Shown piece by piece: positions 8,618 to 13,474 of a stretch of DNA of 13,474 nt (its first letter is position 1; each line of letters begins with the position of its first letter). A program made the position numbers and the translations under genes. The notes beneath the pieces were generated by a model, which saw only the letters and a list, made by a program, of their open reading frames with translations, was not told the DNA's origin and did not search any database. Source of the stretch: Ardenticatenales bacterium (GTDB taxonomy: Bacteria; Chloroflexota; Anaerolineae; Ardenticatenales; Ardenticatenaceae); NCBI GenBank assembly GCA_013812995.1, contig JACCSL010000764.1, positions 1 to 13,474 on the forward strand. Direction: 5' to 3'.

Positions 8618-9874
8618 TTAAACGGCGTCTACGCTCGTCTCTTCCGTGCTCTCTTCGTCGCTGTAGAAGGCAGGCTCCTCGGGAAGTGTTTCCTCGAAGG
8701 CTGCATCGTCAGCCGGGAGCGTTTCCTCGAAAGCCATCGGGCTGTCGTCGCTCTCGCCAACCTCCTCGTCGCTCTCCATGCCATCGCCCTCCTCAGGGAG
8801 AGGTTGGGGAGCACGCTTCAGGCTCAGGCCGATGCGTTGGCGCTCGCTGTCGATGCTGATGATCCGTAGCGTCATGCGCTGGCCCCGGTGGACGACCTCA
8901 CGCGGGTGCTCGACCTTGTCCTCCGAGAGTTCGGAGATGTGGATCAGCCCCTCGATGCCAGCCTCGATGCGAGCAAAAGCACCGAAATCGGTGAGGTTCG
9001 TGACCTCGCCCTCCACCACATCGCCAACATTGTACTTGGAGCTCGCCTGGGTCCACGGATCGGACTGGAGCCGCTTCATGCTCAGGGCAATGCGCTCCTC
9101 ATCGCGATCGATGCTGAGGACATAGACATCCACTTCCTGTCCCACCTCGATGACATCCTTGGGATGCTTCACCCGGTGCCAGGCCATCTCGCTGACGTGG
9201 ACAAGGCCATCGGCCCCACCCAGATCGACAAAGGCCCCAAAGTTCATCAGGTTGGTGACCACACCCTTGCGCACATCGCCGGGCTGTAGTTCATCAAGCA
9301 GGCGGCTCTTGTTCTCGGCACGCCACTCCTTCATGGCGGCGCGCTCCGAGAGGATGAGGCGGCGGCGCTTCTGATTCACCTCGATGACCTTCAGTTTGAG
9401 CTTCCGCTCCATCATCTGCTCAAGGCGCTCCACGCGGCTGCCGCTGTCCGTGCGCTGCACCAGCCCCATGACCTGCGAGGCGGGCACAAAGCCACGAAGC
9501 CGACCAAAAGGAACAATGAGACCGCCCTTGTTATGGCCGGTGACCGGGGATTCAAAAATATCTCCCGTCTCCATCAGGCGCAGCGCCTCATCCCAATCCT
9601 CCTGGCTCTTTGCCATGCTGATTGAGGCGTGGATTCTGCCATCTACATCCTCAGGGTTGAGGATATAGACCGGAATCTCATCACCGACCGCAATATTAGC
9701 CAACTCGTCTGGATCCAACTTTTCCAGATCCGCCGAGGTGATGACCGCATCCAACTTCACCCCTACATCAAGGATGATCTCATTGGAATCTTTGCGAATG
9801 ACAACACCCTGTCTGATTTCGCCTCGCTCGGGGCGCTGGTAATCGTACTGCTCCTGGTTCAGATACTCCCACAT
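8618..9874 (-). CDS. rpsA: 30S ribosomal protein bS1 (four S1 domains)
   Basis: The 418-residue protein binds mRNA on the 30S subunit through S1 domains. Seen: four S1 repeats. The first two (from about GEIRQGVVIRKDSNEIILDV and GDIFESPVTGHNKGGLIVPF) are the divergent ribosome-docking type. The third and fourth (GDVRKGVVTNLMNFGAFVDL and GDVVEGEVTNLTDFGAFARI) are canonical. E. coli has six; four is usual in Gram-positive-like phyla. The tail of about 55 residues is very acidic and contains AFEETLP twice. The start is ATG 9874, where the conserved reading MWEYLNQEQYDYQRPERGEI begins. The frame is open further upstream but reads as non-coding leader. No Shine-Dalgarno precedes the ATG; instead ACCTCCTTA does, the reverse complement of one. 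E. coli rpsA also lacks a strong site and is autoregulated. Confidence 0.92.
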   Translation of the reverse strand: MWEYLNQEQYDYQRPERGEIRQGVVIRKDSNEIILDVGVKLDAVITSADLEKLDPDELANIAVGDEIPVYILNPEDVDGRIHASISMAKSQEDWDEALRLMETGDIFESPVTGHNKGGLIVPFGRLRGFVPASQVMGLVQRTDSGSRVERLEQMMERKLKLKVIEVNQKRRRLILSERAAMKEWRAENKSRLLDELQPGDVRKGVVTNLMNFGAFVDLGGADGLVHVSEMAWHRVKHPKDVIEVGQEVDVYVLSIDRDEERIALSMKRLQSDPWTQASSKYNVGDVVEGEVTNLTDFGAFARIEAGIEGLIHISELSEDKVEHPREVVHRGQRMTLRIISIDSERQRIGLSLKRAPQPLPEEGDGMESDEEVGESDDSPMAFEETLPADDAAFEETLPEEPAFYSDEESTEETSVDAV

Positions 9875-10071
9875 TAAGGAGGTATCTTTATCTTGCTGCT
9901 CTCCAACAAATTCTTTCACAGGCGTTAGCGCCAGGAGGCCCGCACTTTGCCCAATAGTAGGGGCTTTAGACGAAGCGTGGGAGGGAATGAAATGGCAAGG
10001 CAAAAGCTTTGCTATTCCAAGACCTGGCCTCTCCTTTCTTGAATTAGGGTGATAGGGTTGAATATCAAAGT
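9875..10071 (-). promoter_or_regulatory. Proximal leader of rpsA with an anti-Shine-Dalgarno-like element
   Basis: No gene is visible here. On the minus strand ACCTCCTT (9883-9876) ends one base before the rpsA ATG. AAAGGAG (10037-10031), about 150 nt upstream, can pair with CTCCTT and would close a helix beside the start codon. Small hairpins GGCG-CTAA-CGCC (9932-9921) and GCAAA-GCT-TTTGC (10012-10000) lie between. No convincing promoter with both boxes was found in this part, which leaves the promoter near 10680 as a candidate for rpsA. Confidence 0.4.
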
Positions 10072-10381
10072 AGGGGGATTTTGCCTTTCGACCGGGCTCC
10101 CCCTGGGCCACCACCGCTTGCGCGGGTAATGTGTGCCGCCTAAAGCGCCTACTGTTGGCTCGCCAAGGTTATCCTGGCTTGTCCAGCCTACCGCACTGTC
10201 TTAGACCCTCAGACTGTTTAACGGTAGACGATAGAGCGTGGGGCTGGCAAGCACCCCAAGGTATCATGACCAGGATAACGTAGCCCTCGTAGGGCTTAGG
10301 CAATGGTCAGCACGGGCTTGTCGTAACAAGCCCACGGCTTTTTAGGCCGTAGGTCGCTGACAGGCAACACTTCTCCTAGAA
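10072..10381 (-). ncRNA. Multi-helix structured RNA domain, possibly orphan omega/HEARO-like RNA
   Basis: No open frame of note, but dense base pairing. Helices in order along the minus strand: TTCT/AGAA (10381-10371); GTTGC/GCGAC (10368-10353), competing with GTCAGC/GCTGAC (10361-10356 with 10311-10306), which encloses two hairpins; CCTACGGC/GCCGTGGG (10353-10331); GGGCTTGT-TACG-ACAAGCCC (10333-10314); AGCCCT-ACG-AGGGCT (10296-10282); a 10-bp long-range stem GTTATCCTGG/CCAGGATAAC (10279-10270 with 10177-10168); inside it CTACCG/CGGTAG (10227-10222 with 10193-10188); and AGGGGGA/TCCCCCT (10104-10072). Wobble pairs fit only the minus-strand RNA; on the plus strand they become A-C mismatches. 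Inference: either an omega/HEARO-type RNA left by an IS200/IS605 element that has lost its nuclease gene, or a cis-regulatory leader of rpsA. The family name is a guess. Confidence 0.55.
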
Positions 10382-10430
10382 AACCCACCCTTTTAGAGGC
10401 CACCTTACCCCTCAGATGCCTCCGACGCTG

Positions 10431-10487
10431 CCTTTTTATAAATAAAGACCCGAGTTTCATGTCCCTAAATCAGACGAAACCCGAGTC
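10431..10487 (-). terminator. Intrinsic terminator on the minus strand
   Basis: GACTCGGGTTTC (10487-10476) pairs with GAAACTCGGGTC (10458-10447) over 12 bp with two G-U wobbles and a 17-nt loop, followed by TTTATTTAT. On the plus strand the wobbles become A-C mismatches and no T run follows, so it belongs to the minus strand. It would end or attenuate the transcript that starts near 10663. Confidence 0.75.
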
Positions 10488-10663
10488 CACCCACGGTCGT
10501 AAACCGACGCTACTACTCACCTATTGCGCAGATACGCGCCATAGATGGGGTAAAAGAGAAAAGTGTCTTACGAAAAGTCAGCGATGAACTGTACTTGTGT
10601 GTCCGTATGTGGTTCCCGAGGCACCTGCATGAGTGTAGGGGATACTAGAGATGGAAAATTGCT
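10447..10663 (-). ncRNA. Candidate small RNA (~217 nt) between a consensus promoter and a terminator
   Basis: The segment is bounded by a perfect sigma-70 promoter and a strong terminator and contains no convincing coding frame. The 5' TCAGC can pair with GCTGA near 10580, and small hairpins GCGC-GTATCT-GCGC and CGGT-TTACG-ACCG lie in the 3' half. I looked for RNase P, tmRNA, SRP and 6S RNA hallmarks and saw none. It may be a free small RNA, or the attenuated first part of a very long rpsA leader. Confidence 0.5.
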
Positions 10664-10669
10664 GAGCGA

Positions 10670-10698
10670 ATTATAGGAGGGCGTTGAAATAATGTCAA
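10670..10698 (-). promoter_or_regulatory. Perfect-consensus sigma-70 promoter
   Basis: TTGACA (10693-10698), 17-bp spacer, TATAAT (10670-10675) on the minus strand, matching all twelve consensus positions at the ideal spacing. Predicted +1 is near 10663. It begins 14 bp after the stop codon of the bcsB-like gene, so that gene's transcript must pass through it. Confidence 0.85.
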
Positions 10699-10711
10699 AA
10701 TAGTGTTGGTT

Positions 10712-13474
10712 TTATATTGTTGGGGCGCGACGCCGTCGCCACCAGGAAAAACCCACAAGGGCAATGATGGCGATCATGGTGAGAATGGCAACGCCGATGA
10801 CGGGCGGCACCCACCAGAGGCGCTCCGAGGCCGGGGGCGGTGCCGCCGGAATGCCCTTACTTTCGCCACCTGGAACCACGGTAGCCGCGAGACTAATCGC
10901 CCCCCCACCCAGGCGGGTATCGCCGACGACAATCTGTTCCCCATTGATCACCGCATAATTGCCCGATAATCGACCCCGCAGGGTAGCGTCTGTGAGAGCC
11001 CTGCCCGCCCATTGGACCCCCTCCGGGGTGCTCCCCAGAATGGCCAGGATGGCGCGCTGTCTGTTCCAGGGTGAGGCAAGGAGTTGCAGGTAGCCCAGAC
11101 TGGTTCCATCGGGCACCTCGTAGATGACCCGCATGTTGCGCTCAATGGCGAGGTCGCTGCCGGGCTCGAAGGCGGCGGGCAATTCCTCAGAGAGTTCCGT
11201 GATGAGAGGTAGGGTGCTTGGTTGCCCCACTACAATCAGGCTTCGCTCCAGCCGTAGCTCGGGGGAGAGCGCATCGCTGTACGTGGCGAGCAAGTCAGAG
11301 GGTGTACCATCGCCCCGATGGCCGAGATCAAAGGCCACGCTTGCCGCAACCTGCCAGGCCAATGGGGCCTGAGTGGGCAGCACAAAAGCGATTTGATTGA
11401 AAGAGAGTCCCAGTCTTGCCACATTGCCGTATCGGCTCATGTCCAGAATCTGGGCACGGGGGTCTCCTTCCGCAATCAAGGGGATATGAAGCAAGGACTC
11501 GGGCCGAACCGTGAGCCAGATGGTGGCAAGGCGTGGGTCCACACAGGGCTCGCTCGGCATCAGCGTCGATTGGACGGAGAGGCGATTGTTCCCCGCCCGA
11601 AGGACAGAGGGGGGCACGTAGAAGCGCATTATACCCTGCTGAGCCGTGTCGTCATTCAGCCGGACACTCCCAATGGGCTCATCATTGAGCCGTACGATGA
11701 TTTCCGAGCGGGCATAGTCCAGCTTGGCAGTGTGACTGAAGCGAAGCTCAAAATATCCTTCTCCATCTACCTTCATGCCCGGCGGCATATAGAAGTTGTA
11801 CTCGTTCCAGTTGAGGCCCACGCTCTGTACAGTCTCTGCCACATAGCCCATATCGCCCAGCGTGCGATCTGTCAGAACGAGCCTCGACGCATCTTCTGAG
11901 AGCTGACGCACCTCAGTGATGACCGCCAGGGAGGGCGAGGGACCCGCACGCACCACGCCAGTACTCACCGCGCCGCCGGCCTTGAGCACGGCTTCCTCCG
12001 AGGCACCGCTGACCACCAGAACCACCTTCAGAGGGTTCCAGGGGGAGAGCGCCATCTGGACCACACCATCTTCGGCGGCTCCGGCACCCTCGAACCCTTC
12101 GCCCGTCAGAGGAGCAGGAAGCTTGATCTCGCTCAGGAGGGGAAGAGCGGCACCGCGTCCTACAAAGATCAGATGCGTGTTCTCCCGCACCTCATTCGGT
12201 AGCTCGCTGATGGAGTGGAGGGTGAGCTGTAGTTTGCCACTCGTGAGCCGCCCAAAGCCAGCCGCCACACTCAGTGCTGCCTGCAACTCGCCTGCCGTCG
12301 GCTCATCTGGTACCACCAAGGTCGCCGTATCTGTCATAAAGGAGCCCTGATAGATGGGCCGGGGCAGGAACTGAAGGGCCGTTGAAGGCGAAACAATCCG
12401 ATGCGGCAGGGAAAGGCGGGAGCGGGCCTGAAGAAGCACGGTTCCCTGTGGCTGAACGTTACACTGTAGACTGCTATCTAGCGCGACACGAAGCTGGTGC
12501 TGTCTATCACGCCGGGTGGAGACGAGCACCTCCGGCGGAATCGAGAGAGTGAGAGTGCGTAGCCCAGGGCGGTCAAGGCTAACACTATCAATCACCGCTC
12601 CATTGAATGAAATCTCCAGCGTTCCCGCAGAGGTGGGGCTGATAGCCGTGCCCTCTGCGATCTCCGGAAGAATGACGGAGCCGCCAAACGTGGTGTCAAG
12701 ATCAAGCTGCATCTCAGCGCCCTCTGTAAGTTCCCACTCTGCGGGAAGATTAAAGAGGATCTGCACTGAATCGAAAGGGCCACGCAGGATCCGATCATTG
12801 AATCCTAATTGCTCAAGCGACAGGAATGCGTCGGGAGCCCCCTGGTTGCGCGCGTCCCTCTGAGTATCCACCGATGAAATCTGTTCGCCCCCCACCAGGG
12901 CAAGGTCGCCGGTGAGTCTGCCCCGCAGGCTCGGCGTCGTCAGGGCGTTGCCGGCCCACTGGATCCCTTCATCGGTGCTGCCAAGCACCGTCAGGATGAC
13001 GCGCGCACTGCTCCAGGGGGCGCGGGCGAGTTCCAGATACCCTATACTACTACGCTCCGGTAGTCGGTAGACCACTCGCATCTTGCTCTCGCTGGCAAGA
13101 TCGCTGCCCGCCTCAAAGGGAGCAGGGAGCACCGTCCCAAGCTCGGCAACCAGGGGTAGAGTGCTGGGACGGCCCACGATGATGAGGTCGCGCTGCTGGA
13201 CGGTTGCCGGGAGATCCCTCCCATAAAGAGCCAGTATCTCTGCCGCGCTTCCCTCAGCACGGTTCCCAAGATCAAACGCCACCTGAGCGGCGACGGCCCA
13301 GGCCGTCGGCTCCTGGGGCGGGAGCACGAAGGCCAGGCGATCCAGCGACAGCCCCAGCGTGCGCGGGTTGCTGTAGCGCGCCAGGTCCAGGGTGCGAACA
13401 GGCGTTCCCTGGGGCTTGGCAAGCGGCAGGTGAAGAGACGATTCCGAATCAATTGTAACCCACAAATTGGCGGC
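10712..13474 (-). CDS. BcsB-like cellulose synthase accessory protein, tandemly duplicated (5' end outside window)
   Basis: BcsB proteins sit outside the membrane on the cellulose synthase BcsA and alternate carbohydrate-binding jelly-roll domains with flavodoxin-like domains, ending in one anchoring helix. The frame is open to the window edge, so the start is not seen. Numbering from the TTG at 13465: residues 2-202 form a flavodoxin-like module, 226-365 a jelly-roll, 367-505 a second flavodoxin-like module, 540-655 a second jelly-roll and 650-851 a third flavodoxin-like module. A Pro/Ala linker, a membrane helix (about 884-909) and RRRRAPTI follow. Module 2-202 and module 650-851 are close copies (shared AFVLP, VAFDLG, VG-x-PSTLPL, GYL-x-L, GST-x-EG-x-QWAG). 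The 648-residue period equals a whole four-domain BcsB, so the full protein probably holds two copies. Ordinary BcsB has about 700-800 residues. Confidence 0.85.
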   Translation of the reverse strand, partial: AANLWVTIDSESSLHLPLAKPQGTPVRTLDLARYSNPRTLGLSLDRLAFVLPPQEPTAWAVAAQVAFDLGNRAEGSAAEILALYGRDLPATVQQRDLIIVGRPSTLPLVAELGTVLPAPFEAGSDLASESKMRVVYRLPERSSIGYLELARAPWSSARVILTVLGSTDEGIQWAGNALTTPSLRGRLTGDLALVGGEQISSVDTQRDARNQGAPDAFLSLEQLGFNDRILRGPFDSVQILFNLPAEWELTEGAEMQLDLDTTFGGSVILPEIAEGTAISPTSAGTLEISFNGAVIDSVSLDRPGLRTLTLSIPPEVLVSTRRDRQHQLRVALDSSLQCNVQPQGTVLLQARSRLSLPHRIVSPSTALQFLPRPIYQGSFMTDTATLVVPDEPTAGELQAALSVAAGFGRLTSGKLQLTLHSISELPNEVRENTHLIFVGRGAALPLLSEIKLPAPLTGEGFEGAGAAEDGVVQMALSPWNPLKVVLVVSGASEEAVLKAGGAVSTGVVRAGPSPSLAVITEVRQLSEDASRLVLTDRTLGDMGYVAETVQSVGLNWNEYNFYMPPGMKVDGEGYFELRFSHTAKLDYARSEIIVRLNDEPIGSVRLNDDTAQQGIMRFYVPPSVLRAGNNRLSVQSTLMPSEPCVDPRLATIWLTVRPESLLHIPLIAEGDPRAQILDMSRYGNVARLGLSFNQIAFVLPTQAPLAWQVAASVAFDLGHRGDGTPSDLLATYSDALSPELRLERSLIVVGQPSTLPLITELSEELPAAFEPGSDLAIERNMRVIYEVPDGTSLGYLQLLASPWNRQRAILAILGSTPEGVQWAGRALTDATLRGRLSGNYAVINGEQIVVGDTRLGGGAISLAATVVPGGESKGIPAAPPPASERLWWVPPVIGVAILTMIAIIALVGFSWWRRRRAPTI

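Follow-up and report, generated by a model that had tools for sequence, protein, structure and literature searches.

The window analyzed here, a stretch of 13,474 nucleotides on contig C94 of an Ardenticatenales genome, contains upstream of the ribosomal protein gene rpsA a feature that, judged from its sequence and from that of its copies, is a non-autonomous (MITE-like), IscB-less omegaRNA element. The omegaRNA belongs to a family already described, of which the gene-less element is a variant, and the feature is probably best understood as an IscB-less omegaRNA element that sits in the presumed rpsA leader, could be used in trans by IscB, and was later hit by a 22-nt sequence. This 22-mer, the insertion of which matters more than the omegaRNA-only element, is likely to be a mobile element in its own right, one that has crossed phyla. 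The coordinates of the features are collected in Table 1.

Table 1. Features of the rpsA-proximal region of the window
Feature	Position	Strand	Basis or remark
rpsA, encoding ribosomal protein S1, with GTG 9919 as the likely start	8618..9919	-	similarity to relatives
Diverged second copy of the 22-mer with 3 mismatches, in inverted orientation and directly adjoining the element's right end	9951..9972	+	window search
Downstream part (~160 bp) in the place of iscB	9975..10136	-	common to C587 and C605; partly C999
AGGGGGA...TCCCCCT hairpin inside the downstream part	10072..10104	-	sequence, fold, copy comparison
22-nt insertion CCAACAGTAGGCGCTTTAGGCG in the unpaired omegaRNA tail	10137..10158	-	missing from C587 and C605
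omegaRNA (HEARO) body	10159..10361	-	RF02033 model, alignment, compensatory changes
Presumed 16-nt guide region, flank left of the element	10362..10377	-	flank variable; guide position and length as in IscB elements
Hairpin and T-rich stretch, terminator- or attenuator-like by reading	10441..10487	-	fold of 10430-10500
Sigma-70-type promoter-like site TTGACA-17-TATAAT, 12/12	10670..10698	-	upstream of omegaRNA and rpsA

Identity and Fold of the omegaRNA

The initial annotation had described a highly structured RNA and had guessed at a relationship with the HEARO/omegaRNAs. Both proposals are borne out by the Rfam covariance model RF02033 (HEARO/omegaRNA), which matches the minus strand of the window at 10149-10361 over the full model (1-211), scoring 141 bits where the cut-off is 83; the body given in Table 1 is what remains when the 22-nt insertion in the unpaired 3′ tail is left out. 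The helices are beyond chance, the 310-nt region folding with -134.7 kcal/mol on the minus strand and -135 kcal/mol on the plus strand (z of about -4 on either) and none of 100 shuffles folding as well. As both strands fold well, the strand is called from the covariance model and not from the energy, and it is the minus strand, which is also that of rpsA. When 12 of the genome's 26 HEARO copies are aligned, compensatory changes, in which both sides are altered with the pair being kept, are found at 21 of the 67 predicted pairs, and the window omegaRNA retains the consensus stems, including the 10-bp stem between distant segments and the UACG-capped hairpin that had been picked out in the initial annotation and that are both present in the HEARO alignment.

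The genome assembly (5.03 Mb, 1069 contigs, 83.57% complete) yields 26 HEARO matches, of which 20 are above the cut-off, along with 24 matches to RRXRR (IscB), a single broken gene on C425 accounting for two of the latter, and many of the HEARO matches share contigs with RRXRR matches. At the end of contig C580, two HEARO copies (L022/L023) are arranged in tandem about 50 nt apart. The window omegaRNA is similar to the known HEARO/omegaRNAs of IscB elements in its full consensus, its GTCA start, its variable 5′ flank, and the presence of many copies alongside IscB genes in one genome. It differs from them in that it has no adjoining iscB, that a shared part of approximately 160 bp is found instead, and that its tail carries a 22-nt insertion. 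The family itself is covered by the work of Weinberg (2009) and Altae-Tran (2021), both cited in PMC9755519.

The 32 nt that precede the GTCA differ among the 26 own-genome HEARO loci. The guide is presumably located in this flank, immediately 5′ of the GTCA start, where we take it to be 16 nt long, both position and length being presumed by comparison with IscB elements. In IscB elements the guide matches the unoccupied insertion site. Among the own-genome loci compared (424,339 bases, redundant), the presumed guide of the window matches only its own site.

A Gene-Less Element and Its Sister Copies

In the window the element measures 387 bp, or 365 bp without the 22-nt insertion, with its right end placed at about 9975 to within about 2 nt. 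The whole unit of approximately 355-365 bp, down to this end, is common to the window and to contigs C587 and C605 with the flanks being unrelated, and the recurrence of the whole unit in unrelated surroundings is what argues for a non-autonomous, omegaRNA-only element; the one difference in length that sets the window copy apart from these two sister copies is the presence of exactly the 22 nt CCAACAGTAGGCGCTTTAGGCG. In the iscB-bearing copies inspected, the start codon of iscB follows the omegaRNA, mostly within about 60 nt, and its position is where the downstream part begins in the gene-less ones. In the window, C587, C605, and C999, the omegaRNA is followed not by iscB but by this other part with its AGGGGGA...TCCCCCT hairpin. 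The lack of a nuclease gene beside the RNA, which had been read from the letters, was confirmed, as no RRXRR match is found on contig C94 and the window omegaRNA does not have directly downstream of it the iscB of an autonomous element; the contigs of C587, C605, C999, and C753 are likewise free of RRXRR matches. C314, C729, and C580 were not counted as gene-less, the contig ends being nearby.

The copy on C999 has 45 bp of the downstream part in common with the window, at 84% identity. Its omegaRNA is 72.7% identical to that of the window, versus 88.6% for C587, which places the gene-less layout in two omegaRNA groups. The right ends of iscB-bearing copies were considered as a source of the downstream part and gave no match among the copies compared; since the part is missing from these right ends, an origin in which iscB was simply lost is unsupported. 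Plasmid sequences gave no match to 9860-10711. Like the MITEs of the IS200/IS605 type, the element is short and noncoding and occurs in several copies that share sequence but have unrelated flanks; it differs from them in carrying a whole guide RNA, and terminal structures of the kind used by the transposase were not identified.

It is in this context that the alternative of a dead relic, i.e. of a former iscB element now decaying without function after the loss of its gene, has to be weighed. Such a history would fit the absence of iscB and the 22-nt insertion in the RNA tail, and other HEARO/IscB copies of the genome are indeed broken, as exemplified by C425, which is split into two frames, and by four iscB genes that are frameshifted by the 22-nt insertion (see below). 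The consensus stems, however, are retained in the window RNA, and the same layout is repeated in the two sister copies and, with the shared 45 bp, in the diverged C999. The suggestion of a relic in the initial annotation is in this respect not supported, the consensus structure being intact and the gene-less layout being shared, and a relic is regarded as unlikely, although it is the alternative that retains appreciable weight.

The rpsA Setting

The similarity of rpsA to its relatives is consistent only from about GTG 9919 on, though the frame spans 8618-10114. The description of the RNA region as 310 bp without a gene holds insofar as no gene is recognized inside it, but the GTG-started frame overlaps its 3′ part. 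The best named relatives of this rpsA come from Ardenticatenales and Ardenticatenaceae and do not point to Ktedonobacter, which had been brought up. Both taxa belong to Chloroflexota.

A scan of both strands of 9880-10720 returned the promoter-like site of Table 1 as the only one, whereas shuffles had on average 0.6 sites when only 9/12 positions were required. The order on the minus strand is promoter, T-tailed hairpin, omegaRNA, and rpsA. As the omegaRNA is located between a 12/12 promoter and rpsA, transcription of rpsA would produce the omegaRNA, and the latter would be made as part of the presumed rpsA leader. The region 10430-10500, which contains the T-tailed hairpin, folds with -23.0 kcal/mol on the minus strand versus -10.4 kcal/mol on the plus strand; the hairpin is not among the calls of the terminator scan, and from its predicted fold it is a possible attenuator.

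The position in a presumed rpsA leader, on the same strand and after a 12/12 promoter, would also be compatible with a cis-regulatory RNA of the rpsA operon, in which the omegaRNA fold, or IscB bound to it, controls rpsA, but this proposal of a new regulator of a ribosomal protein operon appears highly improbable, since the sequence is multicopy and mobile and since a covariance search, the very test that had been suggested for it, found HEARO at 0 of 29 rpsA loci of relatives (20 + 9 loci), so that a conserved rpsA leader regulator is not supported. At least 500 bp of upstream DNA were available at 27 of these 29 loci, the exceptions being L135 (263 bp) and L153 (38 bp). Any HEARO match at all was found in 1 of 59 relatives under stricter filters, which lose some weak matches. 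The rpsA genes of the relatives are at most 61% identical, and the 29 HEARO-free loci are too distant for the insertion point to be aligned.

Proposed Model for the Element

In the model considered probable here, a non-autonomous omegaRNA element would have landed downstream of the rpsA promoter and ahead of the start codon, following which transcription of rpsA would yield the omegaRNA as a part of its leader. An IscB protein from another genomic copy would then bind the window omegaRNA in trans; a candidate is C637, which has an IscB frame of 449 aa without a stop and an omegaRNA that is 85.6% identical to that of the window. The guide from the left flank would steer this complex to nick or cleave DNA in which the rpsA leader is still unoccupied, and such cutting would favor retention of the element. 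The 22-nt mobile sequence would have been inserted only afterwards, into the unpaired 3′ tail of the omegaRNA. Standing against this model is the terminator-like hairpin between the promoter and the omegaRNA. If the model is correct, the element would represent a natural guide RNA that spreads without a nuclease of its own and borrows one, in this instance placed behind the promoter of a ribosomal protein gene.

Distribution of the 22-mer

In the window, a search with the 22-mer retrieved the exact copy and the diverged one listed in Table 1, and none of 200 shuffles gave two matches at up to 3 mismatches. At the same site of the omegaRNA tail, a 23-nt form that has an extra T is found in the copies on C448 and C667. 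In the whole genome there are 28 copies at up to 1 mismatch (reversed control, 0), and none was found in the 300 genomes drawn from other Chloroflexota at the same threshold. An exact scan of GTDB contigs returned at least 115 stretches with the 22-mer; among the 80 matches listed, 76 bear gammaproteobacterial names, two belong to Polarisedimenticolaceae, one to Nitrospinae, and one to a MAG labeled as Halobacteria. In the class of Methylobacter marinus the 22-mer is present in 11 of 229 genomes, the chosen carrier M. marinus included. Ten genomes picked as carriers contain from 1 to 43 copies at up to 2 mismatches, with a reversed control of 0 in all ten, and the named isolates M. buryatense, M. 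tundripaludum, M. marinus, and Exilibacterium contain 17 to 39 copies by the same measure. Diverged forms include CCAAAAG..., ...GCTCTAGG..., and the 23-nt form.

The possibility of a longer parent was addressed with a probe made of the first 14 nt, which gave 15 to 29 matches per genome in six carriers; the reversed probe gave none except for one match in G063, and, with part of the forward matches inspected, a longer form may exist. Viral contigs hold no exact 22-mer. One degenerate form is present on an IMG/VR contig (L330:8592-8613), a possible vehicle. The letters of the 22-mer were not found in the published texts searched, and no title or abstract naming it was found in the literature on small mobile repeats.

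With respect to systems already described, the SDR elements of cyanobacteria are reportedly 21-27 nt long, dispersed, nested in themselves, and found inside other mobile elements. The 22-mer resembles them, by its behavior and by this description, in its size, in its precise dispersed insertions, in its self-nesting, and in its presence inside mobile elements; it differs in that it occurs in other phyla, being found in Chloroflexota, Gammaproteobacteria, and, among the matches listed, other noncyanobacterial records. The SDR work (Elhai 2008) is cited in PMC3116915 and PMC3733652. With the GTAG-REPs, as described in PMC3733652, the 22-mer shares its shortness, its dispersal, the GTAG motif, and its frequency in Gammaproteobacteria. 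According to that source, the GTAG of such a REP is terminal and its stems measure 5-13 bp, whereas in the 22-mer the GTAG is internal (positions 7-10) and the sole stem seen by inspection has 3 bp, and an assignment to the GTAG-tagged REPs was rejected on these grounds.

Precision of the Insertion

The 22-mer behaves as a precise insertion, as far as can be judged from the sequences compared. Its surroundings were examined in 160 distinct contexts (27 from this genome and 133 from others; up to 3 mismatches, 145 exact), in 152 of which the junction is purine/purine, being A/A in 110. After one context had been dropped because of N in its flanks, the remaining 159 fell into 63 clusters. For 19 of the 63 clusters, uninterrupted counterparts were found in the DNA compared (up to 4 mismatches in 30 nt, with at most six contexts per cluster as queries), although two of these (L101 and L077) are trivial, corresponding to uninterrupted 22-mers elsewhere, and one (L251) is doubtful at 4 mismatches; swapped-half controls gave 0 of 78. 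No target duplication was seen at the insertions, and the 22-mer is found nested in itself on C133, on C597, at C587:3759, and in others.

Four iscB genes (C330 L091, C448 L087, C425 L086, and C234 L072) carry the 22-mer at the identical site GGYAAG/AAG. The 22 nt frameshift all four, and without the insertion their frames read on into GRVAVR and GSFNI. In the tree, C330 is paired with the empty C194 (support 1.000), C448 with the empty C637 (0.952), and C425 with the empty C667 and C122 (0.997), the fourth carrier, C234, being poorly placed with 245 nt only. The carriers being paired with different empty iscB copies, they do not form one clade, and by parsimony at least three gains or precise losses would have taken place at one iscB position, unless the 22-mer was moved by gene conversion. 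In the reading preferred here, the sequence would insert as exactly 22 nt between two purines and would do so repeatedly at one nucleotide of iscB.

The alternative, that the 22-mer is not mobile and is either a motif of old age held in common or an adapter-like sequence introduced during assembly, draws on the unusual nature of an exact 22-nt identity across phyla and on the fact that no enzyme or intermediate is known for it. It is at odds with the uninterrupted counterparts and their empty control, with the existence of diverged forms, with the 17 to 39 copies in assemblies of named isolates, and with the absence from the other Chloroflexota drawn, and is considered improbable. If mobile, the 22-mer would rank with the smallest such elements so far described. 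Its mobility is directly testable, given the pairs of filled and empty sites and its presence in cultured Methylobacter and relatives.

Sequence Context and Putative Target

Judged from their positions or their flanking sequence, twelve of the 28 own copies are located in omegaRNA or IscB sequences, all 12 in the sense direction, with several sharing descent. Frames of at least 200 codons run across the joined site in 17 of the 63 clusters, the 22-mer being in sense in 10 of these 17, and a general orientation bias with respect to coding frames was rejected. Two further own copies, on C133 (L320) and C597 (L319), nested and in a hairpin, have a Y1-transposase match no more than about 150 bp away. 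In the Ectothiorhodospiraceae MAG G067, a 23-nt form is found in a group II intron where two pieces of its reverse transcriptase meet (L316), and a second 23-nt form has a reverse transcriptase on one side and a match to an intron domain on the other (L317). The same two neighbors, intron domain match and reverse transcriptase, enclose a 22-nt form in G069 that has 2 mismatches (L318). RVT_1 and Y1 transposase were both present in 9 of 9 carriers tested and in 3 of 14 and 5 of 14 controls, respectively, and the association with carriers is not decisive, as both are also found in control genomes.

With flanks of 12, 16, 20, and 25 nt, 43, 37, 31, and 25 of the 63 clusters have their junction in a predicted hairpin loop; purine/purine sites nearby do so at average rates of 0.425, 0.375, 0.332, and 0.281, i.e. 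the predicted enrichment is moderate and fades with longer flanks. Taken with the omegaRNA/IscB, Y1, and group II intron contexts, the hairpin loops suggest insertion into folded RNA or single-stranded DNA. If 22 nt do move precisely within and between phyla, some enzyme must copy or paste them, and such an enzyme would have a preference for purine junctions and hairpin loops.

One copy, on C926 (L329:1583-1604), is preceded on the left by the 5′ hairpin of an omegaRNA and followed on the right by post-omegaRNA sequence, as in C613, and to judge by these flanks it looks as if the RNA body had been lost between two 22-mers.
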